From Alistipes sp. (GTDB taxonomy: Bacteria; Bacteroidota; Bacteroidia; Bacteroidales; Rikenellaceae), in the NCBI GenBank assembly GCA_017936685.1, contig JAGBFA010000004.1, positions 228,876-292,875 on the forward strand: 64,000 nucleotides of DNA, given 5' to 3'. Under the pieces are notes generated by a model. The model ran no database searches. It was not told the DNA's origin and saw nothing but the letters and a program-made list of their open reading frames with translations. The position numbers and the translations under genes were made by a program. This document shows positions 6,038 to 32,980 of the stretch, one piece after another. The number at the start of each line of letters is the position of its first letter. Position 1 is the first letter of the stretch.

Positions 6038-7249
6038 TTATGCGGCTATTCCGAGTTGTCGGGCGGCATTCCGCATTTCTTCGTATCTGATGCGATGACA
6101 ACCGGCCGTCAGAATGTCATTTTTGTATGAATTGATACTCCAATTATGGTTGTTGGCATCATGGACAAGGTCATGACGGAAGTCGGCTTCGTTTTTGTGG
6201 AACAGTTCGACCAATTTCCAAAGGCGGACAGCTTCCTTGGCTTTGACCTGAATGCCCATTGAAGTCTCGATGCACCCGTTGCGTACCCGGAGCAACGCAT
6301 TGAAGTCAAGACCGTAAGGGAGGGTGAACCACCTATTCGAGATTTCTCCCGAATACCACAGTTCTTTTTTCTCCTCGAAAGACATGTTGGCTATACGGTG
6401 TCGTTCCTCTTCCTCACGCAACCATCTCTCACGACGTTCGGCATACCGCTGCTCCCGTAGTTCTTCATTACGACGATTGATTGCGTCCTGCCGTTCTTTA
6501 CGTTCGGCAAAATGCTCCCATAGTAGCGGATCGCCGGTACGGTCAATAAAGAGTTGAGAAAGCAGGGTTTTGTATTCTGTGGCTGATGTGGTCTGAAGCA
6601 GACCTCGTGCAAGAATATCGAGGAACAACTCCTGATATTCTGACTTGTTTTCTCTCGGCAGTTCACTGCAATAACGAGGTCGTTCGCCTGTTACGGTCCA
6701 GAATTTCGTAATGTCTTTTTTTGCGGTACTGCTCAATTTGGCCAGTATCGGCATGAGCCAGCGACCGGTTGCGGACTTTTGCCGTTTGTCAAGTCCCCAG
6801 AATTCAATCCAGCGACCGATGTTGAGCAGGCATTCTTTGACATGTTCCGTATAATTCTGGGTACGGGATTTCTGTTGTGCATTGATGTACTCACTGATTT
6901 CTTCCACCTGATCGACAATGTAATATGCCGATTCGTAATAGCTACTTTCCAGCAGTTTATCATTGTGTAGGGAAACCGACCGGGGCGTGTAGAAAATCAG
7001 TTCTCCGTAGGGAATCGCTTTCCGCACCATGCCCATGTGTTTGCAGGTGGTGTTGGAATAGGTCCGGGTCGTTACCAGATAGGCTTTTTGCCCTTGTTGA
7101 TTTGCTTCTACCGAAGCACATCGGAAATGTGACCCGTAGGAATAAATATCTTTGCCCTCGAAGTAGAAGTTGCGCCCATTCCGTGCGCTATCCTGACTTT
7201 GATGTGCCCATAGATGGGCGACCATCGGGGCATCTACGACGTATCTCAT
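6038..7249 (-). CDS. Hypothetical protein, 403 aa, with coiled-coil centre
   Basis: The N-terminus (MRYVVDAPMVAHLWAHQSQD, then NGRNFYFEG and YSYGSHFRCA) resembles an uncharacterised domain found in proteins of phages and mobile elements. Residues about 255-305 are very rich in Arg and Glu (RRNEELREQRYAERRERW) and should form a long charged helix. The C-terminus contains HDANNHNW and GCHRIRYEE. There is no transmembrane segment. It is one of the largest proteins of the left module. I infer an early phage or element role but cannot assign a function. Confidence 0.7.
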   Translation of the reverse strand: MRYVVDAPMVAHLWAHQSQDSARNGRNFYFEGKDIYSYGSHFRCASVEANQQGQKAYLVTTRTYSNTTCKHMGMVRKAIPYGELIFYTPRSVSLHNDKLLESSYYESAYYIVDQVEEISEYINAQQKSRTQNYTEHVKECLLNIGRWIEFWGLDKRQKSATGRWLMPILAKLSSTAKKDITKFWTVTGERPRYCSELPRENKSEYQELFLDILARGLLQTTSATEYKTLLSQLFIDRTGDPLLWEHFAERKERQDAINRRNEELREQRYAERRERWLREEEERHRIANMSFEEKKELWYSGEISNRWFTLPYGLDFNALLRVRNGCIETSMGIQVKAKEAVRLWKLVELFHKNEADFRHDLVHDANNHNWSINSYKNDILTAGCHRIRYEEMRNAARQLGIAA

Positions 7250-7280
7250 GATGTTTCTGTTTTATCTGTTGAAGAATAGT

Positions 7281-7316
7281 TGAAAATGAAAAAGAGAAGG
7301 CGATGACCTTCTCTTT
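7281..7316 (-). terminator. Rho-independent terminator
   Basis: AAAGAGAAGG pairs with CCTTCTCTTT around a 6-base loop; on the minus strand it is followed by a T-rich run. It ends the transcript of the gene at 7328-7708. The following leader contains ATTCTTCAAC, also present after the terminator at 4484. Confidence 0.7.
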
Positions 7317-7327
7317 CGTGTTAATTT

Positions 7328-7708
7328 TTATAGTCGTTCGAGAACCTTCCGGAGGAATTTTTTGCTCAGTACCTGTTTGCAGACTGTGACACCGGACCAT
7401 CCGTTACCGGAGTTCTTGTCGAGCAGTTCCCTTATGAATGTCAGCCAATCTTTGACCGGCTTTTTGTTCAGCACAATCAACAGGCGTTCGGCTTGAATTG
7501 TCCAGTCGTGGAATTCCGGAGACCAAGGGGCGTTTATCAGTTCGGACATGGGAATCGTGAACATGTTTTTCCCGATTGGCCTGACAGCCGGATTTTGCCC
7601 TACGCTGCGCACGGTATCGGCAATGGCCTGTTCTATACGTTCTTTCTCCCGCTTATACTGTTCTTCCAAACGGTCGAGTGCGTTGATTTGGTCTGCTAAA
7701 ATACCCAT
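7328..7708 (-). CDS. Hypothetical protein, 126 aa, N-terminal coiled coil
   Basis: Residues 5-35 (ADQINALDRLEEQYKREKER) form a likely coiled coil. The rest is a compact basic domain ending SKKFLRKVLERL. Its 5' end overlaps the upstream SEC-C-like gene by 13 bp. No family recognised. Confidence 0.65.
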   Translation of the reverse strand: MGILADQINALDRLEEQYKREKERIEQAIADTVRSVGQNPAVRPIGKNMFTIPMSELINAPWSPEFHDWTIQAERLLIVLNKKPVKDWLTFIRELLDKNSGNGWSGVTVCKQVLSKKFLRKVLERL

Positions 7709-7980
7709 CCGACAAAAGGTCTTTTTATGCCGAGTTCCTCGCTGGCCTCATCGCTTCCGCAATCACATTTGCCGACGGGCTTTCCTGAGCCGCATTTGCA
7801 GAGATCGATGCCCCAATGGTTGACGCAATGATTGCAATTACAGAAGACCTGCGGCAGACGTTCTCCCGTGAATCCGATACGGTCGAAAACTTCGCGGCTC
7901 ATACTGTTACTTGCGCCGTTCTCGAATGTTACGGTCATCGCTCCGCATACGCATTCCTGAATATATTGTACCTGTATCAT
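7696..7980 (-). CDS. Hypothetical small protein with SEC-C-like zinc motif, 94 aa
   Basis: The sequence CKCGSGKPVGKCDCG near residues 65-80 closely matches the core of the SEC-C metal-binding motif (CxCGSGKKYKKCC) known from the C-terminus of SecA and many small proteins. Additional cysteines upstream (CNCNHC) may complete a second site. The N-terminal half is a small beta-rich region. SEC-C motifs often mediate ribosome or SecB contacts; the role in this element is unknown. Confidence 0.65.
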   Translation of the reverse strand: MIQVQYIQECVCGAMTVTFENGASNSMSREVFDRIGFTGERLPQVFCNCNHCVNHWGIDLCKCGSGKPVGKCDCGSDEASEELGIKRPFVGWVF

Positions 7981-7981
7981 G

Positions 7982-8866
7982 TCACGCGGATTCGAGTTGG
8001 AATTCGATGCCGGAAGGCAGTTTGGAATAGTCCACTTTTTTCAGGAAGCGGTCAAATTGTTCCTGGGTAACGATGTCGTTCTTGGAAGCATAGTCCCGCC
8101 AGTTGAATACGCCCGTGTTTCGATGGTCGTAGTAGATGAAGTTGTCGAGTGGCATCCCACAGCGAAGCACGTGGAGTTTGACAGCGAGTTCCTGATCGAT
8201 TTTCGCCTTTTCATTTGCCGCATGGGTTTTAAGGTCTTCTATTTTCTTCCGTTTGGCGGCAAGCAGGGCTGCGTGCCTGCGTTTTTTGATGTTGGCGGGC
8301 AGATAATACCCTTCGGCAATTCTGGATTCCACAAGCTGGAATTCTTCCTCTGTGAGAGGGGTGAATTGATAGCGAACGGAGGTGTCCTCAAATTGTTCTC
8401 CGGTCAGCTCTTCGAGTTGTTTGATTGCGGCGCGGGCTTCCTCCTCCCAACGAGTAGGTATGCCCATCGTCTGAAGCAGGTAGGTAAAGTAAAGTTGGTC
8501 TTCCGCCTCACGAAGGAATCGGTCGTACTCTTGTTGGGTAATACGGAGTTCGCTCATTGTAACCTCCTTGGAACTGTTTCGCAGGTGGTAAAATCCGTTG
8601 CCTTGCGCATACATCGGTGCTCCTTTGGCATCGCACAAGTGTAAGGCGATGAACGGACGCAGTTCGGGAAAGGCCACTGCAATTTGTTCATGGCAACACC
8701 CTGCCATGCACCATTTCCAGACGCCGTATTTGTCCTTTTCGTAGATGGTTGCTGTAATGCCGAAGTCGGCATGTCCGTTGCGGCAGTCATCGTCGAGCCG
8801 CACCTTAACGTCTATTTTGTAGCCGTTTATGATTTTTGTTGCGTTATATTTCAGTTTATCAGCCAT
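7982..8866 (-). CDS. Hypothetical protein, 294 aa
   Basis: The N-terminal 90 residues form a beta-rich region (NGYKIDVKVRLDDDCRNGH) with several cysteines. Residues about 195-225 are a charged helix (KKRRHAALLAAKRKKIEDLK). The C-terminus is acidic. It follows the SEC-C-like gene in the same direction with almost no gap. No known family can be named from the sequence alone. Confidence 0.65.
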   Translation of the reverse strand: MADKLKYNATKIINGYKIDVKVRLDDDCRNGHADFGITATIYEKDKYGVWKWCMAGCCHEQIAVAFPELRPFIALHLCDAKGAPMYAQGNGFYHLRNSSKEVTMSELRITQQEYDRFLREAEDQLYFTYLLQTMGIPTRWEEEARAAIKQLEELTGEQFEDTSVRYQFTPLTEEEFQLVESRIAEGYYLPANIKKRRHAALLAAKRKKIEDLKTHAANEKAKIDQELAVKLHVLRCGMPLDNFIYYDHRNTGVFNWRDYASKNDIVTQEQFDRFLKKVDYSKLPSGIEFQLESA

Positions 8867-8877
8867 TGCGGTATGTG

Positions 8878-9534
8878 TTAGTTTGTTGATAATGCAAATT
8901 CCGGGAATGGGAGCTCCAGACCGAATGTGCGGAGATGTTCGGACTGGTTTTGCCGGTTGTCCTCGGCAATTTTATCATCGATGTAAGCCTGGCATTCGCT
9001 TTTGAGTTGGTCAAGCCCGTCATCACCGAAGAAGCCCCAGCAACTGTCCAGAATTTCCGTGTCGTCATCTTCCGGCGTAACCTGAAATCCGTACACTTCA
9101 CCATGCAGGTATTCATTGTACGTGTCGATTTCATTTTGGAGGTATTCCTCGATTTTCTTGCGGCGGGATTGCGTGAGCACTTTCCAGCCGTATTCCTTTT
9201 TTACCTGTTCAACACTGACCGCCACAATCCCGAACCATCCGCTGTCCCATCGGCACGAGAAGGGGCCGGATGAAATGCTGAGACCACTATGGTCATAGAG
9301 AAAAAGGTTCAAAGCGACATGTTTTTGCAGGAATGATTTCCGAATGTTTCCGGGACGGCCGTCGCATACTTCGTCGAAGTCGAAATGTTCGTCGAACTCC
9401 TTTTCAGGACGGTAACGTCGGTGTGCCGTGTAGAACGTGCCGAGGTTGCTCCACTCGCGCGGACTTTCGGGACAGTCATCGTAGTAGATATTGATGTGGT
9501 GTCCTTTATAGGTTATTTGTTCGTATCTGTTCAT
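8878..9534 (-). CDS. Hypothetical protein, 218 aa
   Basis: The protein is acidic and soluble, opening MNRYEQITYKGHHINIYYDD. The central region contains GLSISSGPFSCRWDSGWFG and a long helix around residues 115-145. From memory, proteins with this W-D-S-G-W-F-G segment occur repeatedly in human-gut phages and mobile elements, without assigned function. It is one base away from the next small gene. Confidence 0.65.
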   Translation of the reverse strand: MNRYEQITYKGHHINIYYDDCPESPREWSNLGTFYTAHRRYRPEKEFDEHFDFDEVCDGRPGNIRKSFLQKHVALNLFLYDHSGLSISSGPFSCRWDSGWFGIVAVSVEQVKKEYGWKVLTQSRRKKIEEYLQNEIDTYNEYLHGEVYGFQVTPEDDDTEILDSCWGFFGDDGLDQLKSECQAYIDDKIAEDNRQNQSEHLRTFGLELPFPEFALSTN

Positions 9535-9535
9535 A

Positions 9536-9721
9536 TCAGTATGTATAAGCAGTTTCCAACTCGCTTTCGTAATTCTCGAAAGCTATAAGGTTCTCTTCGT
9601 CCGTCACATCCTGATCCCAGAACAGTTCGACAAAACGCTCTATCACATCCCGCATGGCGCGGGTGTATTGTTGGAGGTATTTTACGGCCCTCGTGCGCCA
9701 ATCTGTCGTTTCGTATTGCAT
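9536..9721 (-). CDS. Hypothetical protein, 61 aa
   Basis: This is a short acidic helical protein (MQYETTDWRTRAVKYLQQY, ending ELETAYTY). It is retained because it sits in frame order with 1-26 bp gaps to its neighbours. No function can be assigned. Confidence 0.55.
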   Translation of the reverse strand: MQYETTDWRTRAVKYLQQYTRAMRDVIERFVELFWDQDVTDEENLIAFENYESELETAYTY

Positions 9722-9747
9722 GATGATTTATGTTTTTGATTGTTCAT

Positions 9748-10161
9748 TCAAATGTCGTTTCGATAGTCGAGCAGGTATTGCTCGAAATGGTTCTCACAAA
9801 TGATTTGGTTACGGTCGGTGTCTGTGGAGAAATCATCCCACTTGTAACCGTAATCTTTCAGTAATTCTTCTTGCTCCGACCGGCTGAAATCCGTCACGTC
9901 GATTTCACCTTCTCGCCAAAGCATATTGTCCGTTGCGAATTTTCGGACTTCGGGTACATTGTGCGCATCGTGCAGAAATTCTGTCGGGTATCCGAGATAC
10001 CGCTGGTAAATCCGATTGGATTCCGTTTCAGCACACGGTAGCAAGTCACGGTGGCAGGTATTAGGCTCGCAATACCAGAATACCGTATCCGATATTTTCA
10101 AGCAGAATTGCAGTTGGTCGGGATCGGTGCATTGAATGTCCGGGTTAAGAAGCCGCTTCAT
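9748..10161 (-). CDS. Hypothetical protein, 137 aa
   Basis: This is a soluble protein with several Cys and His residues spread through the first half (MKRLLNPDIQCTDPDQLQFC, then EPNTCHRDLLPC). No zinc motif of a known spacing is clear. Its start overlaps the stop of the upstream 60-aa gene by 4 bp. Function unknown. Confidence 0.6.
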   Translation of the reverse strand: MKRLLNPDIQCTDPDQLQFCLKISDTVFWYCEPNTCHRDLLPCAETESNRIYQRYLGYPTEFLHDAHNVPEVRKFATDNMLWREGEIDVTDFSRSEQEELLKDYGYKWDDFSTDTDRNQIICENHFEQYLLDYRNDI

Positions 10162-10340
10162 GCGATTTCAAATTGTACCGAGAAGTGGAATTCTTTTCGG
10201 AGGTGAACAATTTCCGCCATTGTTTCAGGGTCTTTCCCGTATGGGTAGAAGATTGTGAACTGGCGGGTCAGGCACCGGATGCCTTTCTTTCGCAGTTTGT
10301 ACAGCAGGTACGCCCTGCGTCTGAGTTGTTTCTTATTCAT
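10158..10340 (-). CDS. Hypothetical basic protein, 60 aa
   Basis: This very basic small protein (MNKKQLRRRAYLLYKLRKKG) could bind nucleic acid. Upstream of its start lies 190 bp of non-coding DNA that holds the solitary structured unit described at 10,371-10,506. Confidence 0.55.
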   Translation of the reverse strand: MNKKQLRRRAYLLYKLRKKGIRCLTRQFTIFYPYGKDPETMAEIVHLRKEFHFSVQFEIA

Positions 10341-10370
10341 TGTCGTTACATTTTTAGAGGATACATAATA

Positions 10371-10506
10371 ATGTGACTACCGATATGGGGCATGGCTTTA
10401 TCCGTTCGATGTATGGTCTTCCGGAAGGATCCTGAGGCACGGCGTGTAGCCAGCGCCTCAGGATCCTGTCAAGGAAGACGAACTGAAAGTTTTCGGTCCA
10501 TCACAT
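10371..10506. ncRNA. Solitary structured unit, copy 1 of the RT-associated hairpin family
   Basis: The conserved box is CATGGCTTTAT, then five bases and CGATG (10,391-10,411). It is followed by a long hairpin at 10,416-10,479 in which GTCTTCC pairs with GGAAGAC and GGATCCTGAGGC pairs with GCCTCAGGATCC. An outer stem pairs ATGTGA (10,371) with TCACAT (10,501). It lies between two leftward genes, 1.9 kb from the other seven copies, and lacks their GTGC boundary box. The strand of the RNA is not settled. Confidence 0.65.
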
Positions 10507-10529
10507 CAAGCCTGCCAGGCGATGACGGC

Positions 10530-11573
10530 TTACTTCCTACGCCACTGGGCCATCTTCTTTTTGATGTCGATGCCGTTGTCGTCGAGCATCTTTTTCAGTG
10601 CGGCAAGCAGGCGCCAGCCATTGCCGTTCTTATACTCTTCGGCCTTGGCCGAGAGGAATGCGAGCGACTGGTATTTGTCCAACCGTCGCCCGTTGTCGTC
10701 GATGGCCGTACAGTTGTGAAAGCGGATGAGGTTTTGCATCGTGTAGAATGCGCCGGCGCCCTTGTAGGCATCTATCCACGCCTTGCTTTGGGGTGTGGAG
10801 TGCTTCATCTTGAACCGCTTGTCGTTGAACTTCTTCACGGCATTGTAGAGCTGGGTGGCATTTTTAGCCGCTCCGATATGGTACGCTGCAAGACGCAGCG
10901 GGCTGTAGAGTTTGGAGTGCAGGTCCTGCACGAAGATGTTGTGGCTGCCGAGACGTTTGTAAGGAATGCCCTTGCATTTCTTGACCGGTAGGCCATCGAC
11001 ATGCGCTTTCAGGTGTTCGATGTAATCTTCCGCCATAGCCGTGGCGACCTTGACGTTGAACCAGCGGTTCCTGTCCGCAAAGTTCTCGGGGTCGTTGCGC
11101 TCCATCTTCATCTGTGCACGCAGTTCGTCGAGCAGCATTTTCCACTGGTATTCAAAACCAAAACGGTGGATCATCTCGGTCACGCCGACCGGATTCCAAG
11201 CACCGTAGTCCTTGTAGGAGAGCATGTGGAACATCTGCGCCATGACGAAGCGGCGGAACAGACGGCGGTTTGGTACGGTTCCCTTTTCGAGGATGTAATC
11301 GAAAATCGGGTCGTTGTCGTCCAGAATCGACAGCTTGCCGTTCTTGTTCGAAGCGACATAATCGCCGCCGTTGGCTCCCTGCATAGCGAATAGGCAGCTC
11401 ACGTCCACGCCGACACTGCGGAGTGCCTCGATGCGTTCGTGCGCCGTCTTGGGCAGCTGTGCCTGTTTGTTTGATGCCGTAGCAGTTTCTGCGATGGTAA
11501 CTTTTTTGCCTGCGATTGCAAGTTCCGTCCCGCATGTCGGGCACGTAACATTCGTCTCTTGTTTTTTCCTCAT
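10530..11573 (-). CDS. Hypothetical protein with N-terminal zinc ribbon, 347 aa
   Basis: The N-terminus carries TCPTCGTELAIAG, half of a zinc ribbon. The rest is a large basic, helical protein with NKNGKLSILDDNDPIFD and, near the middle, DRNRWFNVKVATAMAEDYIEHL. It has no membrane segment. It lies between the solitary hairpin unit and the small genes leading to the hairpin array, on the RT strand, so it could be transcribed with the RT. I cannot match it to a named family. A role with the RT is a possibility from position only. Confidence 0.65.
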   Translation of the reverse strand: MRKKQETNVTCPTCGTELAIAGKKVTIAETATASNKQAQLPKTAHERIEALRSVGVDVSCLFAMQGANGGDYVASNKNGKLSILDDNDPIFDYILEKGTVPNRRLFRRFVMAQMFHMLSYKDYGAWNPVGVTEMIHRFGFEYQWKMLLDELRAQMKMERNDPENFADRNRWFNVKVATAMAEDYIEHLKAHVDGLPVKKCKGIPYKRLGSHNIFVQDLHSKLYSPLRLAAYHIGAAKNATQLYNAVKKFNDKRFKMKHSTPQSKAWIDAYKGAGAFYTMQNLIRFHNCTAIDDNGRRLDKYQSLAFLSAKAEEYKNGNGWRLLAALKKMLDDNGIDIKKKMAQWRRK

Positions 11574-11575
11574 GA

Positions 11576-12046
11576 TTAAATAGTTGATTGATTATTATTC
11601 GGCTCTACCCATTGTCTGAGTATCACCAGGTCCTTGTCTTCTTGGCTCTGCCAGAACCACCGGCCGAACTTCTCGGGATTCCATTTGAAGCCGCCGAGCA
11701 GTTGGCAGAGGATGAATAGTTCCAGCTCGATTTGTGATTTGTCGCGCCGCTCTCCATAGAGCATGTCGTCGTCACTCAATTCTCTTTCCGGCAATGCTCC
11801 AAAATAGCGGCGCGATGTACTCTCGCTGCGTTCCGACGGAATCGAGTGCTTGTAACTACGGTATAGTTCTTCCACTTTCGAGAAGAACTCCTCATCGCTG
11901 CAATGCGGTACTCCGAGAACGCCTTCATACGAGCCGTCCCGGATGACATACTTGCCGTTTACTTTGAGGCTCCGCGTTTGGAAGTCAACTTTGAAACGCG
12001 CCCCGTTTTCTACGGCACGGACTGTTTCTTGATAGATATTGTCCAT
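11576..12046 (-). CDS. Hypothetical protein, 156 aa
   Basis: The protein opens MDNIYQETVRAVENGARFKVDFQTRSLKVNG, a compact beta-rich start, and is followed by a Ser/Arg-rich linker (SERSESTSRRYFG) and a Trp-rich C-terminus. It lies 2 bp upstream of the zinc-ribbon gene in the same operon. Function unknown. Confidence 0.65.
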   Translation of the reverse strand: MDNIYQETVRAVENGARFKVDFQTRSLKVNGKYVIRDGSYEGVLGVPHCSDEEFFSKVEELYRSYKHSIPSERSESTSRRYFGALPERELSDDDMLYGERRDKSQIELELFILCQLLGGFKWNPEKFGRWFWQSQEDKDLVILRQWVEPNNNQSTI

Positions 12047-12051
12047 AGCTC

Positions 12052-12279
12052 CTACGAATTGGCCATGTCCGTTCTCCTGAAGGCGGGAATGCTCAACTTC
12101 AGGTTGTCGTTAATCAGGAATTTCCTGTCGCACTCGCAAATGATGTGGGTGTCCGTTACCCGTTTGATTCTTCGTGTAACTTCGTCATGGGAGGTGTAAG
12201 GCTTCCCGTCCTTGGTTCCGTTATCTATATCTCCCGAGATATGATACCAGTTTCCGATTTCAATGTCTTTTACGTTCAT
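12052..12279 (-). CDS. Hypothetical protein, 75 aa
   Basis: This small protein opens MNVKDIEIGNWYHISGDID and contains RRIKRVTDTHIICEC. The pattern of short beta strands suggests a small barrel-like domain, but this is a guess. It is the first gene to the left of the hairpin array, and its start lies 30 bp from the first array boundary. Confidence 0.6.
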   Translation of the reverse strand: MNVKDIEIGNWYHISGDIDNGTKDGKPYTSHDEVTRRIKRVTDTHIICECDRKFLINDNLKLSIPAFRRTDMANS

Positions 12280-12311
12280 TTTTTATCTGGTTAAATTGTT
12301 TGTCATTTTAT

Positions 12312-12437
12312 GCACTCGAATCGATGACGCATGGCTTTATAGCTCTGATGAATACAGTAGGTCCTGGATCCAGAACCAGGTAATCGCCTGGTCAGGATCC
12401 AGGTAGAATACTGTATGCTAAATTCGATTCCTCGTGC
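12312..12437. ncRNA. Structured unit, copy 2
   Basis: The outer stem pairs GCAC and GAATCGA (from 12,312) with TCGATTC and GTGC (to 12,437). The box is at 12,330-12,350. The hairpin nests ATACAGTA with TACTGTAT, CCTGGATCC with GGATCCAGG, and ACCAGG with CCTGGT around the loop TAATCG. A short CGGGC/GCCCG hairpin follows at 12,444-12,459. Confidence 0.65.
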
Positions 12438-12468
12438 AAAATCGGGCTGCGTTGCCCGTAAGTCTCAA

Positions 12469-12598
12469 TCAGGCCGGCACATTGCTTTATCAGGTCGATA
12501 TGAGCAGCTATTCAGCTACGGACCTTGTCCATAGGCATCTAATCAGATGCCTTGGACTACGGTCCTTGATGTTATTAGCTGCACCATTAAACTCCTGA
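12469..12598. ncRNA. Structured unit, copy 3
   Basis: The outer stem is TCAGG with CCTGA. The box begins at 12,480. The hairpin at 12,504-12,582 nests GCAGCTA with TAGCTGC, GGACC with GGTCC, GTCCA with TGGAC, and AGGCATCT with AGATGCCT around the loop AATC. Confidence 0.65.
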
Positions 12599-12628
12599 CC
12601 TTGACCTTTTCACTTTGTGCTAAGTTTT

Positions 12629-12782
12629 GCGGTTCTTAGGATTGTGACACGTTGCTCTAATAGGTCGATGTGTGCCGCGATTTGAAGTCCGGGCAGCGAC
12701 GTCGTGTTCCTGATAGTGAATAACGACGTCATTGCCGGGACTTCATTGCTTGCGGCATGCTGATTCTTGTCCCCTGAACCGC
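12629..12782. ncRNA. Structured unit, copy 4
   Basis: The outer stem is GCGGTTC with GAACCGC. The box (12,650) is the most divergent, CGTTGCTCTAA. The hairpin nests TGCCGC with GCGGCA, GAAGTCC with GGACTTC, and GACGTCGT with ACGACGTC. Next to the first stem, G672-T758 and T671-G759 pair only as G-U in plus-strand RNA. Confidence 0.65.
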
Positions 12783-12810
12783 AGTTTTCCGTGCTGAAAA
12801 AAAATCTCAT

Positions 12811-12941
12811 TCGGACGGTACATTCCTTTATTTTCCTGATGTGCGCTGCTCTGTTCTGCTGGCCTGATATGTCCTCATCTCCGAGCGGAGATGAGGAGGT
12901 ATGCGGCCGCAAGTTCAAGAGCTGCATAACTGAAATTCCGA
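12811..12941. ncRNA. Structured unit, copy 5
   Basis: The outer stem is short, TCGGA with TCCGA. The box is at 12,821-12,841. The hairpin core pairs TCCTCATCTCC with GGAGATGAGGA around the loop GAGC. A GGCC/GGCC helix and a GCTCT/AGAGC helix lie further out. Confidence 0.6.
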
Positions 12942-12974
12942 CCTCGACTTTTGTAGCTGTGTACTCAGCTTCTC

Positions 12975-13112
12975 ATGATTCTCAGAATATCGGCACATTG
13001 CTTTATTGCTTTGATGTACGCCAGTTTCGGAAGCCGGATGGTCGCCGTCGTATGACGTTAGGGATACGACGGCGCCGGACGGACTGTATCGAAACTCGGC
13101 ATATTGAATCAT
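12975..13112. ncRNA. Structured unit, copy 6
   Basis: The outer stem pairs ATGATT and AATAT with ATATT and AATCAT. The box is at 12,996-13,016. The hairpin nests AGTTTCG with CGAAACT, CCGG with CCGG, and the 11-bp CGCCGTCGTAT with ATACGACGGCG around a 10-base loop. Confidence 0.65.
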
Positions 13113-13146
13113 ATTCCTTGAATCATGCTTTCGTGCTAAAAAAGAA

Positions 13147-13304
13147 GAAGTTCTCATAATGACGACACATATCTTTACTTGCTTGATGTCACCCGCGAGA
13201 GCCCAGCTCTTGAGGAGTCTGAAGGTGATGGTCCGATCACCTTCAAGACTCTCGATAGAGCTGGGTTACACACGCGGGAATCTCAAACTCATTCCTCGAA
13301 CTTC
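13147..13304. ncRNA. Structured unit, copy 7
   Basis: The outer stem is GAAGTTC with GAACTTC. The box is at 13,168-13,188. The hairpin nests CCCGCG with CGCGGG, CCCAGCTCT with AGAGCTGGG, GAGTCT with AGACTC, and GAAGGTGAT with ATCACCTTC around a 6-base loop. Confidence 0.65.
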
Positions 13305-13340
13305 TGCTGATGTGTTTCAGTTTCTTTCGTGCAGATGTCT

Positions 13341-13476
13341 GGCTGGATGGCACATTCCTTTATCACTTTGATGGTTACAGGCTATTGCCAGAAGAAATCC
13401 TGAATGAAACCGGTCGATAAACCGGATTTCACTCAGGATAATTCTGGTTAAATTACCTGTAATATGAATTCCAGCC
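13341..13476. ncRNA. Structured unit, copy 8
   Basis: The outer stem is GGCTGG with CCAGCC. The box is at 13,353-13,373. The hairpin at 13,375-13,462 nests TTACAGG with CCTGTAA, CCAGAA with TTCTGG, ATCCTGA with TCAGGAT, TGAAA with TTTCA, and CCGGT with ACCGG. It is the copy nearest the RT gene. Confidence 0.65.
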
Positions 13477-13506
13477 CTTCATCAGCTTGCCGTGCACTCG
13501 GCATTG

Positions 13507-14772
13507 TTACAGTGATGCTACCAGCGTGTTGTACACAGCCCGACTTGTTAGCAGTGCATTCCTCATGCAACCAATCGTTAGATAGCCGGGGATGTTGCCT
13601 CCGGTTTTGGAACGGTTTGCTTTCACATTACGCCCACGCCCCCGAACAATACATCCGTCAGACTTGTTTCTGACATATCCCAGACCTCCGACTTTGCGTT
13701 TACCGGTTGCAACTGCCCGCAGACAATCCATGACAAACATATTCAGTTCGTCAAGATCTTTCCGCACGTTGCATACAGGAAGAATCTGTGTCGCCCAACT
13801 GAACTCGCCGTTGCCCTTGTACAGGTAACGGTTCACGGCATGGACGGCTTTCGTCAGCGTCGTATCCCGACAACGAATCGTTCGTTGTTCAATCTCTTTC
13901 TGGAAGGTTTTGATACGGCTGGACGAGAGTGAAATCATCTTGCCTTTGATGCTGAATCCGAGAAATTTGAACCAGTTGTCCGCTGTTAGGTACTCCACCT
14001 TTTTCGGATTTAGCTTCATGGATTTCTCGGCAAGTCGCTGTTGGAGCAGTTCCATTGCCTTTTCATAGTCGGCACCGACGAAGAGCATGTCATCCGAATA
14101 GCGGACGTAGTAACCGTTCATTCGGGATAGCTCCTCGTCCAGATCGTAGAGCAGCACGTTGGCCAGCCAGCTCGCTACGGCGCAGCCCTGCTTGAGGGAC
14201 TGGTAGCGGCTTTGGAGGGTGTTGTGCTCGTCGAAGTAGAGGTCCGAATGATAATATTTCCGCAGCACGTCGATTAAAGCGGAATGACCGTGTTTGGCTT
14301 CAACCTTATCGAATGCCTCATCGACGAATTGAATCGGGACGCTGTCGAAATATTTGGAGAGGTCGGATTTCCAGCCCAGAACTCTGTTCTTTGCAGCGTT
14401 CACGATCTGATGACTGACCTCGGTAACCACTCGGCCGCAACCTATTCCTGTCTGGTAGGACTTGCATGTTTCGTGGAGCATTTCAGGCATCAGGTCGAAC
14501 AAGAGGTCGTTGGCGATACTGAGTATCACACGGTCCATCGGCTCGTTTACATACACTGTGCGGAACTCGCCGTTGTCTTTGGGGATTTGAGCCGTATGGG
14601 GCGGCGAGATTTCGTACTTCCCCAGCATCATGGCTTCAGCCATTGCCAGCCGGGTATGTTCGTCGGTCAGTCGGATGAGCTGGTCTTTCCGGATGTCTTT
14701 GCCCACACCTTTCTCGATTGCTTTCGTCCATCGCTCGATGTCGAAAAACATTTGCAATATCTTATCTGCCAT
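13507..14772 (-). CDS. Reverse transcriptase, unassigned class, 421 aa
   Basis: This is an RNA-directed DNA polymerase of the bacterial retron/group II-like fold. Visible motifs: the N-terminal FRTVYVNEPMDRVI (RT2 region), SYQTGIGCGRVV, catalytic Asp137 in KSDLSKYFDSVP (motif A), QGCAVASWLANVLLYDLD near 195-212 (motif B), the active site YVRYSDD at 222-228 (motif C), and LNPKKVEYL followed by WFKFLGF (RT6-7). A thumb-like helical region (about 285-355) and a basic tail (VRGRGRNVKANRSKTGG) follow. There is no HNH endonuclease, maturase signature or protease. The motif B sequence differs from that of diversity-generating RTs. Its 3' end abuts the structured array, and a Cys-rich small protein lies upstream. 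Confidence 0.9.
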   Translation of the reverse strand: MADKILQMFFDIERWTKAIEKGVGKDIRKDQLIRLTDEHTRLAMAEAMMLGKYEISPPHTAQIPKDNGEFRTVYVNEPMDRVILSIANDLLFDLMPEMLHETCKSYQTGIGCGRVVTEVSHQIVNAAKNRVLGWKSDLSKYFDSVPIQFVDEAFDKVEAKHGHSALIDVLRKYYHSDLYFDEHNTLQSRYQSLKQGCAVASWLANVLLYDLDEELSRMNGYYVRYSDDMLFVGADYEKAMELLQQRLAEKSMKLNPKKVEYLTADNWFKFLGFSIKGKMISLSSSRIKTFQKEIEQRTIRCRDTTLTKAVHAVNRYLYKGNGEFSWATQILPVCNVRKDLDELNMFVMDCLRAVATGKRKVGGLGYVRNKSDGCIVRGRGRNVKANRSKTGGNIPGYLTIGCMRNALLTSRAVYNTLVASL

Positions 14773-14799
14773 TTACAAGTTAATCATATTGTTAGAACG

Positions 14800-14979
14800 T
14801 TAATCTTTGTCTTTATGCTCGGATTGCCACAGCCGATATGCTCTCTCGTTGCGTTTTTTCGGGCTTAATTTTTTGCAGGTTTTGCAAAACGCATTAAATA
14901 ATCCCTGACTGATGTATTCCTCACGGGTAATAGGTTCTCCGCAGCATTCACATCTGTATTTTTTATCTGCACCTAACAT
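14800..14979 (-). CDS. Small Cys-rich zinc-finger protein, 59 aa
   Basis: The frame from the ATG at 14,979 encodes a basic 59-residue protein. It has CECC at residues 10-13 and CKTC at about 33-36, spaced as a treble-clef or zinc-ribbon finger, then a basic helix (KKLSPKKRNERAYRLW). It lies 27 bp upstream of the RT and 2 bp after the DUF3846-like gene, so it should share their transcript. It could be a nucleic-acid-binding helper of the RT, but that is inferred from position only. Confidence 0.6.
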   Translation of the reverse strand: MLGADKKYRCECCGEPITREEYISQGLFNAFCKTCKKLSPKKRNERAYRLWQSEHKDKD

Positions 14980-17226: not shown

Positions 17227-18667
17227 CATCGTTCACACGCAAAGACGATTATCCGCTGTCATGGCAAGCCCGACATACTCCAATTTCGACGGGTGCTTCT
17301 TTGGCACGTCCCCCGTCTTTTCCAACGGGGCAGCTAACATTAGGGCGGTTGGCGGCTGGTGATTGTGGGCATGACATTGGCAATGCTCTTTTCTCAAGCT
17401 CCGTGCGGATTGTTTTTACCGCATAGCGATTTTTATCTCCGGCTGCGCAAGGGCAGACTTATGGCATTATTTTATCGCCTCCCTTTTCCATACGACTCTC
17501 GCCCTCCCAAAATCACGGGCTTTGCGTATGCGGACAAAATACACGTATTTCGACCGTTCCGACTTGCGGCATTGGTTTGCCGTTCCGCTCGGTGTGGTTG
17601 TTTGACACCCTATTTAAGCGTTCCAAAACGCACGGACGAATTTTTGATTTTCCAAGCCTCAAAAATAGGTTTCCCACAAAAAAGGCTTTTGTTTTCTCGC
17701 TGTTGCGGTTTTTGCTGTCTGTTTCTTACTTACTGACTTTTTTTGTTTTTACTATTTACAGACTTGTTGCGGTTGTGTCGCTTTTGAAAGTCTGTATATT
17801 TTTTGTTTCTGTTTTCCCCGTCTGTTTGTCGGGGCTGTTTCCCTTTCGGTTCAATTCAACTCTAAAACAAATTTTTCAATCCTCCAAATAATTTTTTTCG
17901 TCCGACTGACAAAACGGCTCTAAAATAAGAGTGGACGCCCGCGCGCGAGGGCTATTCCTATTTAATTGAAAATCAATCTATTGTAGAAAAGAAAAATTTT
18001 TTTCAAAAAAAATATAGGGTTCAACGCTCAAAAACAGACTGAAAGAAAAACTATATATATTGATAGTCAATTATTTGCGAGTTAAAAACAGACTAAAAAC
18101 AAGGGAGAAAAAAATTTTTGCTTTCAACCCGAAAGAAACAAAGGTCTATTTATAGGCTTTTAGCTTCACTTTTCTACAAAGTGAAGGTGTTAAAATACTG
18201 AATAACAACACGCTAATAATTTTTGAAAAGAACGGGGTGGGTACTGCCCCCGGTGCGGATTCGATACGCGCCCTACGGCCTGATTTTCAAGTCCCGTTTT
18301 TGGCTCTGACTTTTTTGTTCAAAGTTTGGCACGGTTTCGGGGGATTATTTGTTCAAAACAGAACAGGATTTGCAGCGGGAGAAGTCGTCAGGTTATAGAC
18401 AGACTTTGCAAGAATCCATTTACCCGCCAGTTTTGCATTGTCGGATTCTCTTGATAATCGTCATTTCATGTTATGGCAGATATGGTTATGCAGAGAATCC
18501 TGTTTACTAAAACATTCCAAAATGGGGCATTAAAGCAGACGGTCGCATATACAGTCTTGCATAGGAATTTGTGCGCTAATGAATTATCGAATTTTTTGTC
18601 GAAACTTTTATTAGGTTTCCCTAAAAAGAAAATTGATAATTTAAGCCCGCATTTCCCGGACAATCTT

Positions 18668-23401: not shown

Positions 23402-24811
23402 ATGGTAAACCGAACATATTGGAGCCGATTTGTTCGTATGGTCCGAGAGGGTCGGATAACCCATTTTTTCGGGTTCGAACTATTCTTTTTGAAACCCGAA
23501 AAAATGCAGGAAGAAGGAACATTTAACCACGAATTGCTCGAAAGCATATTCCACACGTCGAAGAAAACGATTCAGGAATACGTGCGGGAAATCGAACGGC
23601 ACAACCGCTACCGTTCGGTGCGCTCGAACATGCTGCTGGGAACCATCCTCGACGACCGGGCGCGTCTGATCGACCTGTACGATGCGTGCCTGCAACAGGA
23701 TGCGCACATCCGTGCCGTCATCGAGACACTCGAAAGCCAGATACTCGGAGACCGCTATATGCTCGCCCGTCTGAACGACAAAGGCAAATACGTCAAGGAT
23801 GTGAAAGAGAGCCAGAAGATACAGGGCTCGCAGTTCGACAAAATTATCCGGGGTGTCATCGAGGCCAAGCTCTACGGTTATACGCTGTTAGAAATCATGC
23901 CCGATATCGATCCTGATACGGGACGGCTGAAAGAGGTGAACAGCATCGAACGCCGCAACGTCCTGCCCGAACAGGGCATTGTCGTCAAACGGCAAGGACT
24001 GTGGATGCCACACTGGGACATCCGCTCGGCCGCCTACCGGAAACGCTATGTGCTCATCAAGACGGGAGACCTGGGACTCTTCTCGGCCACGACGCCGCTG
24101 ATTCTCGCTAAAAAGTTCACGGTCGCCAACTACGTCAATTTCAGCCATACCTACGGCCAGCCCATCATCCACGGGAAGACCGTCAGCGAAAACAACATGG
24201 ACCGCAAGCGTCTGGCGCAGGACATCTCCAATGCCGCCCAGAACAAGGTTATCGTAACGGGATTGGAGGACGAGGTGGACATCAAGACCTTCACCATGTC
24301 CAACAGCGAGAAGATATATACCGGACTGATCCAGTTCGCCAACAAGGAGGTCTCGAACCTTATTCTCGGCTCCGAATCGATGGCCGGAGGCATGCAGTCG
24401 TATGTCGGCTCCACCAAGGCGCATCAGGACATCTTCCGCGACCGTATCGAGGTGTATCGCCGCTATATCGAGAACGTGATGAACGAGCAGATCATCCCCC
24501 GGCTCGTGGCGATGGGTTATATCCCTGCCGGACTGGAGTTCAAGTATTCCAACCGTATCGATATGAACAACGAGGACCGTATAAAGCTCTACTCGCTCAT
24601 CACGGACAAGTACGAGGTGGCGGCGGATGAAATCGAGAAAGAGTTCGGCATCGTCGTGGGCAAGCAGCTCAACGTGATACCCGGCATGGGCGGCGGAGGC
24701 GGTGTAGCAGTCGGCGGAAGCTCGTCCGACCGGGGCATCATGTCAGACGAGGAATACTACAAACGTTACGGCCATCCCCGAGGCGTGAAACAAACCGACA
24801 CTAACCCGTAA
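23402..24811 (+). CDS. Portal protein, DUF935 (Mu gp29-like), 469 aa
   Basis: This protein would form the dodecameric portal through which DNA enters the capsid. It shows the DUF935 pattern: ILDDRARLIDLYDACLQQDAHIRAVIETLE near the N-terminus, DIKTFTMSNSEKIYTGLIQF, and FRDRIEVYRRYIENVMNEQIIPRLVAMGY. The frame opens at 23,402, but the first 34 residues are unusual and a start at 23,504 (MQEEGTFNHELLES) is also plausible. It is the first gene of the rightward late operon. The usual neighbour upstream, a terminase, is not visible. Confidence 0.85.
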   Translation: MVNRTYWSRFVRMVREGRITHFFGFELFFLKPEKMQEEGTFNHELLESIFHTSKKTIQEYVREIERHNRYRSVRSNMLLGTILDDRARLIDLYDACLQQDAHIRAVIETLESQILGDRYMLARLNDKGKYVKDVKESQKIQGSQFDKIIRGVIEAKLYGYTLLEIMPDIDPDTGRLKEVNSIERRNVLPEQGIVVKRQGLWMPHWDIRSAAYRKRYVLIKTGDLGLFSATTPLILAKKFTVANYVNFSHTYGQPIIHGKTVSENNMDRKRLAQDISNAAQNKVIVTGLEDEVDIKTFTMSNSEKIYTGLIQFANKEVSNLILGSESMAGGMQSYVGSTKAHQDIFRDRIEVYRRYIENVMNEQIIPRLVAMGYIPAGLEFKYSNRIDMNNEDRIKLYSLITDKYEVAADEIEKEFGIVVGKQLNVIPGMGGGGGVAVGGSSSDRGIMSDEEYYKRYGHPRGVKQTDTNP

Positions 24812-24814
24812 GCC

Positions 24815-25396
24815 ATGAGAATCACCCTTGAACAATTCTGCGAGCAGTGGGCACCGAAAGGCAACGGCCGGTATTTGCCTAATAAGATGGAGTTCAACAC
24901 CCACGACTTCGTGACAATGGCCGGCGAATACTCCATAAGTCGGTTCCGCACCAGTTTCGCCGAAGGCGGCTTTTACGGCAGCGGCAGGCCGTGGCCGGAA
25001 CGCAAATCCCGCTGGGGCCGACGCTTCACCCATCCCGTGATGAACGACACCGGAACCTTGTCGCGCTCCATCTCCGGGGAAGCCGACCGTATGGACCATA
25101 CCAACATTACCCAGCGCGGCTATGGTGAGCGGAAGAAGATCTTCCGCCGTGGAGCCCGTTATGCCATCCGGACCAAGGCGAGCAATTTCAACCAGCCGGG
25201 CAAACGCGGCGCTTCCAAGAGCTACGCCGCCGTCCATAATACCGATCCGGCGTTGGGACTCTACACGGTCAACCAATATAGCAGCCGCCGGCCTGAACAC
25301 CGGCAGTTTATTGGTATCAACCCGAAACTGAACCATACCGTCAACCAACTGTTTATCCCCATTCTGTTCCGGGGATTTCCCTTTCCGAACCCATGA
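24815..25396 (+). CDS. Phage virion morphogenesis-like protein (Mu gpG-like), 193 aa
   Basis: Position directly after the portal, and segments such as THPVMNDTGTLSRSISGEAD and RYAIRTKASNFNQPGKRG, fit phage virion morphogenesis proteins that help tail or head assembly. The C-terminal PEHRQFIGINPKL is a common end pattern of this family. It overlaps the next gene by 4 bp. Moderate confidence in the family call; the gene itself is secure. Confidence 0.7.
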   Translation: MRITLEQFCEQWAPKGNGRYLPNKMEFNTHDFVTMAGEYSISRFRTSFAEGGFYGSGRPWPERKSRWGRRFTHPVMNDTGTLSRSISGEADRMDHTNITQRGYGERKKIFRRGARYAIRTKASNFNQPGKRGASKSYAAVHNTDPALGLYTVNQYSSRRPEHRQFIGINPKLNHTVNQLFIPILFRGFPFPNP

Positions 25397-26193
25397 TTAG
25401 AGACAAGAAGCCATATAATCCACCCGTAAACGGTTCCGCTCCGAGAGCGGAACAACCTACGGTTGCCGTGCCCGAACAGGTGTCGGAGAATCCGTTCGTG
25501 AACATGTATCAGGCTGTCCGCCGTGCCATCCTCACACTGCGGGAGCATCCGGAAGAGCCGCAAAGTCCACCGTTTTTCAAGACCATCATGATCGACACGG
25601 GACAGTTCTCCCGTATCGTGCGCAGCGAGAATCTGGAAATGGAAATCGCCTTCCCGGCCATCTTCATCCGCTTCGTGAACGTGCGCTACCTCGTACAGCA
25701 GCAACGTATCGGCGAGGGCCGCGCCACCATGCGCATCCGCTTCATCCTCAATACGCTCAACCATACCGACCCGGAGCGGGAATGCGACCCGTTCATCGTT
25801 TTCCAGAGGTTGAACGTCGCCATTCAGGATGCCAAAAGCCATGAACCGGCACTCACCGAGCGATGCAATCTCCTTTACTTCGACATGCCTATGACGACCA
25901 ACATGTTGCAGGCGTACTGGGTGGATTACGAGGTCTGGTTCCGGGAATCGTCAGCATGGAAGTACCGGAACTGGGTCGAGCGCTATCTGGTCATGCCGCC
26001 CTTCACGCAACATGCGGATGCGCCGGAACACGACACGGCCGGGCACGGGCATCATGCCGAACCTGTTTACGAAAAGGTTACGGGATTCGAGCCGTCGGTC
26101 GATGTGCCGGACCTGCCGGAGGAGGATGAAAAAGAACCCGAAGAGGAAAAGCCTGCCGAGGATGTCCCGAACGGCTCCGAAAGCGGATTATAA
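25393..26193 (+). CDS. Hypothetical phage structural protein, 266 aa
   Basis: A soluble core (residues about 30-200) contains FFKTIMIDTGQFSRIVRSEN and TERCNLLYFDMPMTTNMLQAYW. The C-terminal 60 residues are a His/Asp/Glu/Pro-rich tail. Its place between the morphogenesis protein and the protease suggests a head-tail connector or tail-terminator role. No family can be named with certainty. Confidence 0.6.
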   Translation: MIRDKKPYNPPVNGSAPRAEQPTVAVPEQVSENPFVNMYQAVRRAILTLREHPEEPQSPPFFKTIMIDTGQFSRIVRSENLEMEIAFPAIFIRFVNVRYLVQQQRIGEGRATMRIRFILNTLNHTDPERECDPFIVFQRLNVAIQDAKSHEPALTERCNLLYFDMPMTTNMLQAYWVDYEVWFRESSAWKYRNWVERYLVMPPFTQHADAPEHDTAGHGHHAEPVYEKVTGFEPSVDVPDLPEEDEKEPEEEKPAEDVPNGSESGL

Positions 26194-26235
26194 ACCATTT
26201 CACGCGGGCGAAGCTATTCTTACCCAAAGGAAAAG

Positions 26236-27492
26236 ATGAACACGGAAACTTTTGAACATATCGTCTGTCAGTCGGGTGCCGGACGTCCGGCTTCCATCCG
26301 CTTCTTCGGCCGCATCACAGAAGAGAGTGCCGGACGTTTCAGCGAGGCATTCGATTTTTTGGAGAACATCGTGCGTCCCTCCCTTATCCGGGTGCTCATC
26401 AACTCGGAGGGTGGTTCGGTACTGCACGGCATGACGGTCTATGCCGCCATCCAGAATGCCTCGGTACCTACCGAATGCGTCATCGAAGGCATGGCCGCCT
26501 CGATGGGCTCCGTCATTTGGGCCGCCGGGGACAAGTCGTTCATGCGGGATTACGGTATTCTGATGATTCACAACCCGTTTTTGCCTGACGAAAACGACGG
26601 GGAGCAATCCGATTTGGTCAAAGCCTTCACGACGCAGATCGAGACCATCTACCGCAAGCGGTTCGGGTTGAGTCGTGAAAAGGTCCGGGCCATCATGGAC
26701 GGGGCTGCCGGGCAGGACGGGACATTCTTCGATGCTGCGGCTGCCGTGAAGGCAGGTATCATCCCCGAAAGCCATGTGCTCAAGACCAACAAGCAGCTTC
26801 GGGACAAGGTGCGTGCCGACCTGTCGGGTATCACGGACGCGGCGGCCATACAGGCGGTCATGAACCGTATCACACCACCCGAAGAGGAAAATCACCCGTC
26901 GGACGAGAAAACCACTATTCTTAATACGAAACTTAATCACAGATCCATGAACGAAGAGAAAACATTATCCCCGGAATACAGCGCGGTGGTCGCCTCACTC
27001 GGTATGCAAGAGAAGAACGAGGTCAAGGACGTGCTCTCCCGCATTTCGGAGCTGACCGGTGTGGAAGCCAAGCTGGCCGAGGCGAACAAGGCATTGAGCG
27101 ACGCCAAGACCGTGATTGCCGGCAAGGACGCCACCATCGGCAATCTCCAAAAAGACCTCGACAGCGTAACCGCCCGGTTGCAGGTCTATGAGCAGAAAGA
27201 GGCCGAAGCCAAAGCGGGTGCCATCCAGAGCTTCTTGCAGAAAGCCGTGGACGAAGGCAAGATCGAGGCGGACGCGGTGCCCGGCTGGAAAGAGATGGCT
27301 GCCACGAACTTCCAGTTGGTGCAGGACACCATCGGTTCGATTCCCGCCCGCGAGAAAATCAGCGAGCAGATCGCCACCGACCCCGACAACGCCAAAGCGG
27401 CCGCCGATGCCCTGAAGAGCGCCGGTCAGAAAATGGCCGAACAGGTCGAAGCCGTCGTAGGCAAGGACTTCGCCTTCAAGAAGCTGCAATAG
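26236..27492 (+). CDS. ClpP-like prohead protease fused to a scaffold, 418 aa
   Basis: The N-terminal 200 residues are a ClpP/S49-type serine protease. RVLINSEGGSV and the nucleophile Ser in EGMAASMGSVIW are visible, as is the His in LMIHNP. The C-terminal part (about 235-418) is Ala/Lys/Glu-rich and coiled, as in phage scaffolds. An internal ATG at 26,947 (MNEEKTLSPEYS) follows a low-complexity linker and could start a separate scaffold product in the same frame, as known for Mu-type phages. The major head gene follows. Confidence 0.85.
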   Translation: MNTETFEHIVCQSGAGRPASIRFFGRITEESAGRFSEAFDFLENIVRPSLIRVLINSEGGSVLHGMTVYAAIQNASVPTECVIEGMAASMGSVIWAAGDKSFMRDYGILMIHNPFLPDENDGEQSDLVKAFTTQIETIYRKRFGLSREKVRAIMDGAAGQDGTFFDAAAAVKAGIIPESHVLKTNKQLRDKVRADLSGITDAAAIQAVMNRITPPEEENHPSDEKTTILNTKLNHRSMNEEKTLSPEYSAVVASLGMQEKNEVKDVLSRISELTGVEAKLAEANKALSDAKTVIAGKDATIGNLQKDLDSVTARLQVYEQKEAEAKAGAIQSFLQKAVDEGKIEADAVPGWKEMAATNFQLVQDTIGSIPAREKISEQIATDPDNAKAAADALKSAGQKMAEQVEAVVGKDFAFKKLQ

Positions 27493-27624
27493 CCCCGTCC
27501 GGCGGGAGACGTACCATCCCGCCACCTCGATACACATAAACTGATTTGCCGGAAGTGGTTTACCGCTTTGAGTCGATGCTCCCTGTTCGCGGCCGAGATT
27601 CTAACCCAGAAAATCACTAACACA

Positions 27625-28674: not shown

Positions 28675-28753
28675 CCCTTTACCGAATCACCGAATATCAA
28701 CGTGCGGGGGATGGACACCATACTCCATCCCCCTTTTTCATACCGCAATATCT

Positions 28754-29050
28754 ATGGCAAAGACTCAAACGACCATTCCTGAAACAGATACCGCCCAGCC
28801 CGATGCGACAGTCGCAGCACCTACGACAACGACTGGAGAGAAAGATACGGCGACCGAGAAATCCCCGAAGAAAGAACAGGCGCCGAAAGCGGCGGCCGAG
28901 ATTCCTGCCGCCGCGTTGGCCATCCTCGGCAAGTTCCCCGACTACAAGGAACTCTACATCGATGCCGATGGCAGCATGTACACGCCGCAGACCGCTCCGA
29001 CCATCCGGGGCAAGGCCATCCTCTACAAGAATCCCTATTATAAATCATAA
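28754..29050 (+). CDS. Small Pro/Ala/Thr-rich phage protein, 98 aa
   Basis: The first 45 residues are low-complexity Thr/Pro/Ala and Lys-rich (MAKTQTTIPETDTAQPD). The C-terminal half is a compact segment (FPDYKELYIDADGSMYTP). Between major capsid and sheath, small proteins of this type are often head decoration or head-tail joining proteins, but the family is not clear. Confidence 0.6.
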   Translation: MAKTQTTIPETDTAQPDATVAAPTTTTGEKDTATEKSPKKEQAPKAAAEIPAAALAILGKFPDYKELYIDADGSMYTPQTAPTIRGKAILYKNPYYKS

Positions 29051-29062
29051 CACGCAGGCTAT

Positions 29063-30406: not shown

Positions 30407-30414
30407 ATGTAAAC

Positions 30415-30870: not shown

Positions 30871-30879
30871 GGTGAGGCT

Positions 30880-31362: not shown

Positions 31363-31457
31363 GCTTTATCGTTTTTGTGTTCCGGAGATATGCCGACAGG
31401 TCGGAGTTTGACCTGAAATTCTAAAAAAAGCCAGTAAAACGTTGCTGTAAATAATGA

Positions 31458-31490
31458 GGGTATCCAATTTTCATCTGTTGGATACCCTTA
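31458..31490. terminator. Terminator between the methylase gene and the AbiE cassette
   Basis: GGGTATCCAA pairs perfectly with TTGGATACCC around a 10-base loop and is followed on the plus strand by TTATTTTTT. On the minus strand it can also end the AbiE transcript. Confidence 0.75.
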
Positions 31491-31494
31491 TTTT

Positions 31495-32364: not shown

Positions 32365-32367
32365 ATT

Positions 32368-32952: not shown

Positions 32953-32966
32953 GTCTTCTTTTATCT

Positions 32967-32977: not shown

Positions 32978-32980
32978 TTA
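32973..32980 (-). promoter_or_regulatory. TAACTTTG promoter box of the AbiE operon
   Basis: On the minus strand the box matches TAnnTTTG, placed about 21 bp before the AbiEi ATG. Confidence 0.6.

Follow-up and report, generated by a model that had tools for sequence, protein, structure and literature searches.

A 64,000-nt stretch from the genome of a gut bacterium, Alistipes sp. (GCA_017936685.1, JAGBFA010000004.1, positions 228,876-292,875 of the forward strand; hereafter the window, whose coordinates we use) carries a cassette that combines a reverse transcriptase (RT), two partner proteins and an array of structured, sequence-variable hairpin units. The region is a contractile-tailed prophage, with genes for portal, head protease, virion protein, tail sheath, tape measure and baseplate at 23402-40871, and the cassette sits amid small open reading frames (ORFs) of the opposite strand. 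All of its components lie on the minus strand: the RT gene (13507..14772), encoding 421 amino acids with a YSDD active site; then, 3' of the RT, about 1.2 kb without a plausible gene (mechanical ORFs only); a small ORF of 75 amino acids (12052..12279); and the genes for p156 (11576..12046) and p347 (10530..11573), the latter protein having a zinc-ribbon-like CPxCG start at its N-terminus. Seven units fill the space from the RT stop to the next gene (approximately 12313-13502), and an eighth, with the box variant ATGCCCC, lies directly behind p347 (10374..10520, the 5' edge placed by eye). An earlier, sequence-only reading of this DNA had described seven units of 150-185 bp beside the RT; the number holds, whereas units 1-7 measure 146-170 nt here, with short linkers between them and with edges that depend on starts of the first stem-loop (SL1) placed by eye. 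It had also put a conserved box ahead of each hairpin; the natural strand is that of the RT, and the box therefore lies 3' of each hairpin.

The RT, thought in that reading to be of no obvious class, matches the PADLOC profile RT_UG27 from end to end (profile positions 1-420 of 420; 1.8e-239, 793 bits), followed by UG26 (1.4e-38), a general RT profile, Drt9 (6.8e-26) and UG17 (6.8e-25), the last of which is DRT10 according to the available part of PMC12632851. By its profile match the RT belongs to the UG27 family; Pfam assigns it to RVT_1, and YxDD is kept in 31 of 31 aligned RTs. The UG27 RT is DRT-type and probably of Class 2, the class being read from the rank of the profiles. Retrons had been named as the nearest analogues, and their anatomy, an msr-msd RNA in which a conserved part stands beside a variable long hairpin, next to the RT, does recall the conserved part and variable long hairpin adjoining this RT. 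Kinship with them is not supported: the best PADLOC retron model reaches 7.1e-14, and of the retron RT motifs NAxxH occurs in 0 of the 31 RTs and VTG in three. Instead of one msr-msd per RT, there are many units, with at least two box matches in 58 of the 66 loci that we compared (56 of 58 viral loci, nine others and the window, several being near-duplicates), and a branching G is not among the features shown.

The partners match PADLOC models that are labelled DRT, p156 to RTas346 (3.8e-72) and p347 to RTas337 (2.7e-155). At the protein level the cassette thus has what defines the UG27 DRT-type group, the RT profile with RTas337 and RTas346 beside it, and the triad is therefore already catalogued (candidate DRT, PADLOC-DB 2.0.0): the same RT family with the same two partners. 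PADLOC holds protein models only, and the array, the pseudoknot and the hairpin exchange described below are additions to this triad. Among the 66 loci, p156 is matched in all and p347 in 64, the two without it (L015, L051) being short stretches; p156 is fused to the RT in four (L013 and L128-L130). The 75-amino-acid ORF is probably no core part, because it is matched in just five. Neither p156 nor p347 of the window matched a Pfam family; a zinc ribbon is weakly matched by 11 of 38 aligned p347 relatives (best 0.0027), and the 34 p156 relatives gave isolated weak Pfam matches to unrelated models. Mean column identity is 73% for the RT (31 rows), against 44% for p156 (34 rows) and 37% for p347 (38 rows), the row sets being different.

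To judge from our searches, the UG27 RT is rare in genomes. At 1e-40 it was found in three of 393 genomes of the order, one of the three being the window's own, and in 395 genomes of the phylum the sole full-length match was again the window's own, all others being at 8.7e-27 or weaker; a plasmid scan gave no match at 1e-30. Most of the relatives found sit in viral contigs: scanning IMG/VR with nine aligned RTs yielded 58 loci on contigs of up to 143 kb, as against five from genome contigs scanned, at unequal depth, with the single window RT. The locus set excludes L141 and L142, whose RT is truncated at the contig end. Of 50,697 records in a phage collection, two matched at 1e-20, including the isolate Bacteroides phage BS-TP1 (PQ571274.1, 20001-22612), in whose record the RT is labelled a tail protein and the array that follows it, 1.35 kb long, is unannotated.

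The array keeps company with the RT in nearly all of these loci. A 24-position box matrix, trained on boxes of the window and its relatives, scored the eight window boxes at 21-33 bits on the RT strand; just two other matches of at least 10 bits occur in the window (12.1 and 12.6 bits), and shuffled sequence gave 0.2 matches per 64 kb (five single-base shuffles). Within 3.6 kb downstream of the RT, at least one box was matched in 62 of 66 loci and at least two in 58, bearing out the expectation that homologous RTs would carry such arrays, and a box at the position of unit 8 is also present in L009, L044, L011 and L049, and weakly in L046. The four loci without a matrix match are L013, L135, L136 and L137. 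An independent count of strong hairpins was made in 52 distinct RT-p156 gaps, the four fused loci and ten repeated gaps having been dropped: at least one was present in 51 gaps and at least two in 50, with three to four each in L135-L137, and the gap that lacks one (L132) has two weak boxes by the matrix. Altogether 230 strong hairpins lie in 52.6 kb of gap, compared with 12 in a control of up to 50.6 kb measured from the RT start; even the latter figure is an overestimate, because the control stretch enters the array where the gap exceeds the length of the RT gene.

Whole-unit MAFFT alignment smeared the helices, and the search model for boxes away from the RT was therefore built from the 44-nt box only. 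When this 44-position model was run over the 393 genomes of the order and 150 relatives, clusters among the matches listed occurred in four genomes (G000, G446, G115 and G068), all of which have a UG27 RT, in agreement with the sequence-only reading, which would have been contradicted by boxes widespread without any RT. In a further genome (G003) a box pair lies on one contig (C31), while a UG27 RT stands at the end of a different one. At E <= 0.5, isolated weak matches turn up in 344 of 393 and 114 of 150 genomes; the scan scored only some candidates per genome, and weak clusters may well exist elsewhere. UG26 RTs were tried as carriers and rejected: L205-L207 (10.5-11 kb) have neither a p156 or p347 match nor a hairpin row at the RT. 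Single strong hairpins lie elsewhere in L205 and L206, and the fourth UG26 locus, L021, is a 3.3-kb contig. In 50 loci of other RT matches (flanks of about 1.5 kb) no p156 or p347 match was found at 1e-3.

One distant relative is perhaps instructive. In a Bacteroidaceae metagenome-assembled genome (L013), whose RT is 42-45% identical, a single unit stands directly upstream of the RT-p156 fusion and the p347 domain is in the gene before them. The unit stretch folds with z -6.2 relative to shuffles, and its SL1 (GTT-CGGGCA-AAC) pairs by eye with the box TGCCC. This single upstream unit suggests a non-coding RNA (ncRNA) that belongs to the RT and that phages have multiplied. Several neighbours of this RT (6494-12876) have zinc ribbons or GYF domains, and the gene behind it has by eye the look of a caspase or C25 peptidase; Pfam gave only a zinc ribbon there.

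The units share one order on the RT strand: SL1 (a short stem with a loop like AGCACA), a TTCAAG-like stretch, the 5' strand of an outer stem (P0), TTYA and the long hairpin, followed by ATCRRNNNNNTAAAGNNA, five bases YRYRY, the 3' strand of P0 and TGAGA. Base frequencies of the box region in 161 units selected for ATC and TANAG show positions 18-22 alternating between pyrimidine and purine at 94% or more. These five bases form a pseudoknot with the SL1 loop. We examined 88 of 185 non-redundant units, namely those with a canonical box, YRYRY behind it, a six-base alternating loop and a stem of at least 3 bp; the loops were picked blind to the box and the remaining units dropped. There, 422 of 440 loop-box pairs are Watson-Crick, with 14 G.T and 4 A.C. 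All five pairs are Watson-Crick in 74 of the 88 units, as against a mean of 12.5 and a maximum of 23 in 1000 permutations of the boxes, made under the same alternation constraint, which by itself favours pairing. Each position covaries (Fisher p 4e-13 to 1e-21, kinship of the units left in), and where adjacent units have differing boxes the SL1 loop makes 138 of 145 pairs with its own box, compared with 101 with the previous and 103 with the next. A looser choice of SL1 (147 of 185 units) points the same way (3.16 versus 2.72 permuted, standard deviation (sd) 0.06). In the window the fit is seen by eye in unit 2 (13151..13320; loop AACACA, box TGTGT) and unit 7 (12313..12458; GGGC-AACGCA-GCCC, box TGCGT). 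The outer stem, already proposed in the sequence-only reading, is likewise supported: the seven bases behind the pseudoknot have at least six Watson-Crick partners in the 5' part in 65 of 162 units (permuted, 12.4), and in an unanchored test (59 units, ten loci) the score averaged 14.2 versus 11.9 permuted (sd 0.25). It is weak in unit 5 (12633..12800), which is followed by unit 6 (12463..12625).

The hairpins themselves, in the 185 units from all loci, have a mean of 30.7 Watson-Crick pairs (range 11-43) and a median apical loop of 5, and 147 are stronger than the best of 370 single-base shuffles. Where there are at least two helices (163 hairpins), the first internal loop is larger on the 5' side in 57, on the 3' side in two and equal in 104. 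Within one locus the hairpins are unrelated in sequence, as measured by 7-mers in common per pair (0.93 versus 0.54 shuffled). Their pairing is under selection, judging by 97 compensatory position pairs with pairing kept in 59 ortholog pairs (each read in both directions) and by a divergence of 0.095 at paired against 0.163 at unpaired bases. The claim that structure is kept without sequence has thus stood up well, and both stems quoted as examples, one of 11 bp (in unit 3, 12979..13140) and one of 9 bp, are present in the window.

Comparison of close relatives reveals how the hairpins differ. When the window is set against L009, whose RT is 95% identical, seven of the eight hairpins are identical at 86-90 of 90 positions; in unit 1 (13336..13502), which comprises SL1, P0, hairpin and box, the basal helices are the same and the distal stem is wholly unlike (50 of 99). 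In unit 4 (12804..12969) the distal stem differs from that of L044 (68 of 95) with pairing kept. Since it has been replaced whole in both units, the distal stem is an exchangeable module. Searches with the array hairpins gave, outside the array in their own genome, a best match of 35 bases at 83% (E 0.015), in the phage collection only the homologous record MT835776, and among plasmids one 38-base place (E 0.3); with just these matches, there is no sign of spacer-like hairpin targets. A CRISPR array was also considered and rejected, the largest repeat family being five copies of 30 nt with 67-73% identity to the reference, i.e. not near-identical repeats.

The explanation that we favour, with a little more confidence than doubt, is a phage UG27 system whose cis ncRNA has been multiplied into an array and whose hairpin region is probably copied into hairpin complementary DNA (cDNA). 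We infer that the RT, the array, p156 and p347 would be co-transcribed, and that the sense strand of each unit would fold into a pseudoknotted scaffold, with the SL1 loop bound to the bases behind the box and P0 closing it. The RT, perhaps with p156 or p347, would recognize this scaffold, every one of which would display its own hairpin of about 80 nt; copying of the hairpin region by the RT into short hairpin cDNA would then give each locus a set of different hairpin DNAs. These DNAs would most likely be used to compete with other phages or with the immunity of the host.

Mismatches offer some indication of whether RNA or DNA is the selected form. On the sense strand of the pseudoknot, the 14 G.T exceed the four A.C (binomial p 0.03); the anchored P0 mismatches comprise 27 G.T, 14 A.C and 56 others, and the unpaired variable block of the scaffold has A 0.48 and C 0.13. 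The scaffold looks, in these anchored counts, as if it bears a sense-RNA signature. This would suit units that act as RNA only, as decoys, antitoxin-like pseudoknot RNAs or regulators held by the RT, p156 or p347, and so would the placing of pseudoknotted units in tandem within an operon that also encodes proteins. Type III toxin-antitoxin RNAs (e.g. ToxI) are tandem pseudoknot units, similarly placed head to tail within one operon; here, however, the array partner is an RT and the unit interiors differ in sequence. We consider action as RNA only to be unlikely, given an RT active site that is intact throughout the alignment and hairpin mismatches without a sense-strand G.U excess. Single hairpin mismatches are G.T 76, A.C 115 and other 408 (G.T versus A.C p 0.006), different in type from those of the pseudoknot (Fisher p 0.002), and one-sided changes in ortholog pairs are G.T 64, A.C 103 and other 166. 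Unpaired hairpin-arm bases have C 0.32-0.35 and G 0.13-0.15, whereas the four-fold sites in the RT genes have C 0.27 and G 0.26. One reading of these figures, which we offer as a lead, is that the hairpin seems to be selected on its complement, i.e. the cDNA.

A.C being at least as frequent as G.T in hairpins would also be compatible with units that work at the DNA level without reverse transcription, whether as folded single-stranded sites like integron attC or as palindromic protein-binding sites. Such units are very improbable, because covariation in the pseudoknot comes with an excess of G.T on one strand, the arrays keep to the RT-p156 gap, and the cassette proteins match the RT, RTas346 and RTas337 models, not recombinases. 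As regards the attC comparison, the linkers between units are short and only mechanical ORFs overlap the array; no search aimed at an integrase of the IntI kind was made.

Several observations weigh against the copying of hairpins into cDNA as we propose it. The strand signal is modest, and a cruder unanchored count was reversed for the scaffold (P0, G.T 34 and A.C 51; SL1, G.T 15 and A.C 19). The C-rich mismatches could alternatively be placed to weaken the RNA hairpin. G is scarce outside the stems as well (apical loop, 0.148; linker after TGAGA, 0.162), and its depletion is thus not peculiar to them; a strand control with signal recognition particle RNA was uninformative (G.T 4, A.C 9, other 84; 23 of 30 loci, strands mixed). 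The typical SL1 occurs in just 88 of the 185 units. Group II introns provide both the top NCBIfam hit of the RT (an RT/maturase model, scoring under its cut-off) and the top PDB hit of the aligned RT family (an RT). Finally, the Class 2 products described in the available part of PMC13174585 are not copies of a hairpin but tandem repeats, made on a confined template.

This last point leads to a doubtful alternative, that the units are RT-bound ncRNAs in which the short single-stranded box (ATCRRNNNNNTAAAG) serves as template and is copied repeatedly, as in DRT9 or DRT10, with the hairpin as no more than a structural arm. Synthesis of repeats from a confined template is what the available parts of PMC12632851 and PMC13174585 describe for the Class 2 relatives, and the box lies outside the hairpin and P0, adjoins the pseudoknot and includes a variable block, for which no pairing was found. 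The template loop of DRT10 has, in the part of PMC12632851 available, an A-B-A' arrangement with poor sequence conservation; in the box such an arrangement is not enriched, the longest direct repeat being 3.087 versus 3.091 column-shuffled (161 units). A template in the box would, moreover, leave the hairpin differences and their exchange unexplained.

A multiplied cis ncRNA, as we favour, would place the UG27 system beside known relatives. Class 2 UG RTs characterized to date template on cis ncRNAs (PMC13174585, in part), and the conserved, covarying structure in cis to the UG27 RT would, on the sequence comparisons above, be such a structured ncRNA. As far as the available texts go, DRT2, DRT9, DRT10 and DRT3a resemble it in joining an RT to a structured cis element, which in DRT2 is likewise pseudoknotted, with a poorly conserved template region (PMC12039810); they differ in having one ncRNA per system, whereas the UG27 locus has several units, mostly downstream and with a long hairpin each. 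No account of a UG27 array was found in the literature searched; the original UG-class paper lay outside the search and could mention RNA beside UG27.

With a unit design in common and a different hairpin in each unit, it seems that a single enzyme may serve many different templates or ligands. We regard as a real possibility, short of probable, that cDNA production is multiplexed: one RT with a bank of pseudoknotted RNA holders and exchangeable palindromic inserts, yielding hairpin DNAs that act jointly. These could be decoys or triggers directed at proteins of the host or of rival phages, their inserts being swapped between phages. UG27 RTs are a catalogued defence-type group for which no study was found in the literature searched; if the proposal is true, they gain a concrete RNA partner, one that can be multiplied and diversified inside one locus. 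What UG27 RTs copy and why phages carry them become testable questions, as does whether the array is a natural store of exchangeable inserts from which single-stranded DNA is made in multiplex. The interpretation given in the sequence-only reading is partly supported overall, and SL1, the pseudoknot and the two partner genes were not part of it.

Some minor observations concern individual loci. In L139 six further box matches follow p347 in a row (10771-11702, some 2.5-3.4 kb past the RT stop), so that this phage seems to have two arrays. In L012 a run of 28 T (10606-10633) lies between the last unit and p156 and is likely an unstable tract. L135, a 143-kb phage contig, has hairpins with a strongly diverged, TACAGCGAACAACCCGGC-like box, seen by eye (8288-9533). 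Rfam recognized only a Bacteroidales-2 RNA within the window (RF02943, 434 bits), which lies outside the array at 17304-17695 on the plus strand, in the same prophage and on the strand opposite the RT operon; with the threshold relaxed to E 5, a pair of microRNA models matched the array, far below their cut-offs.

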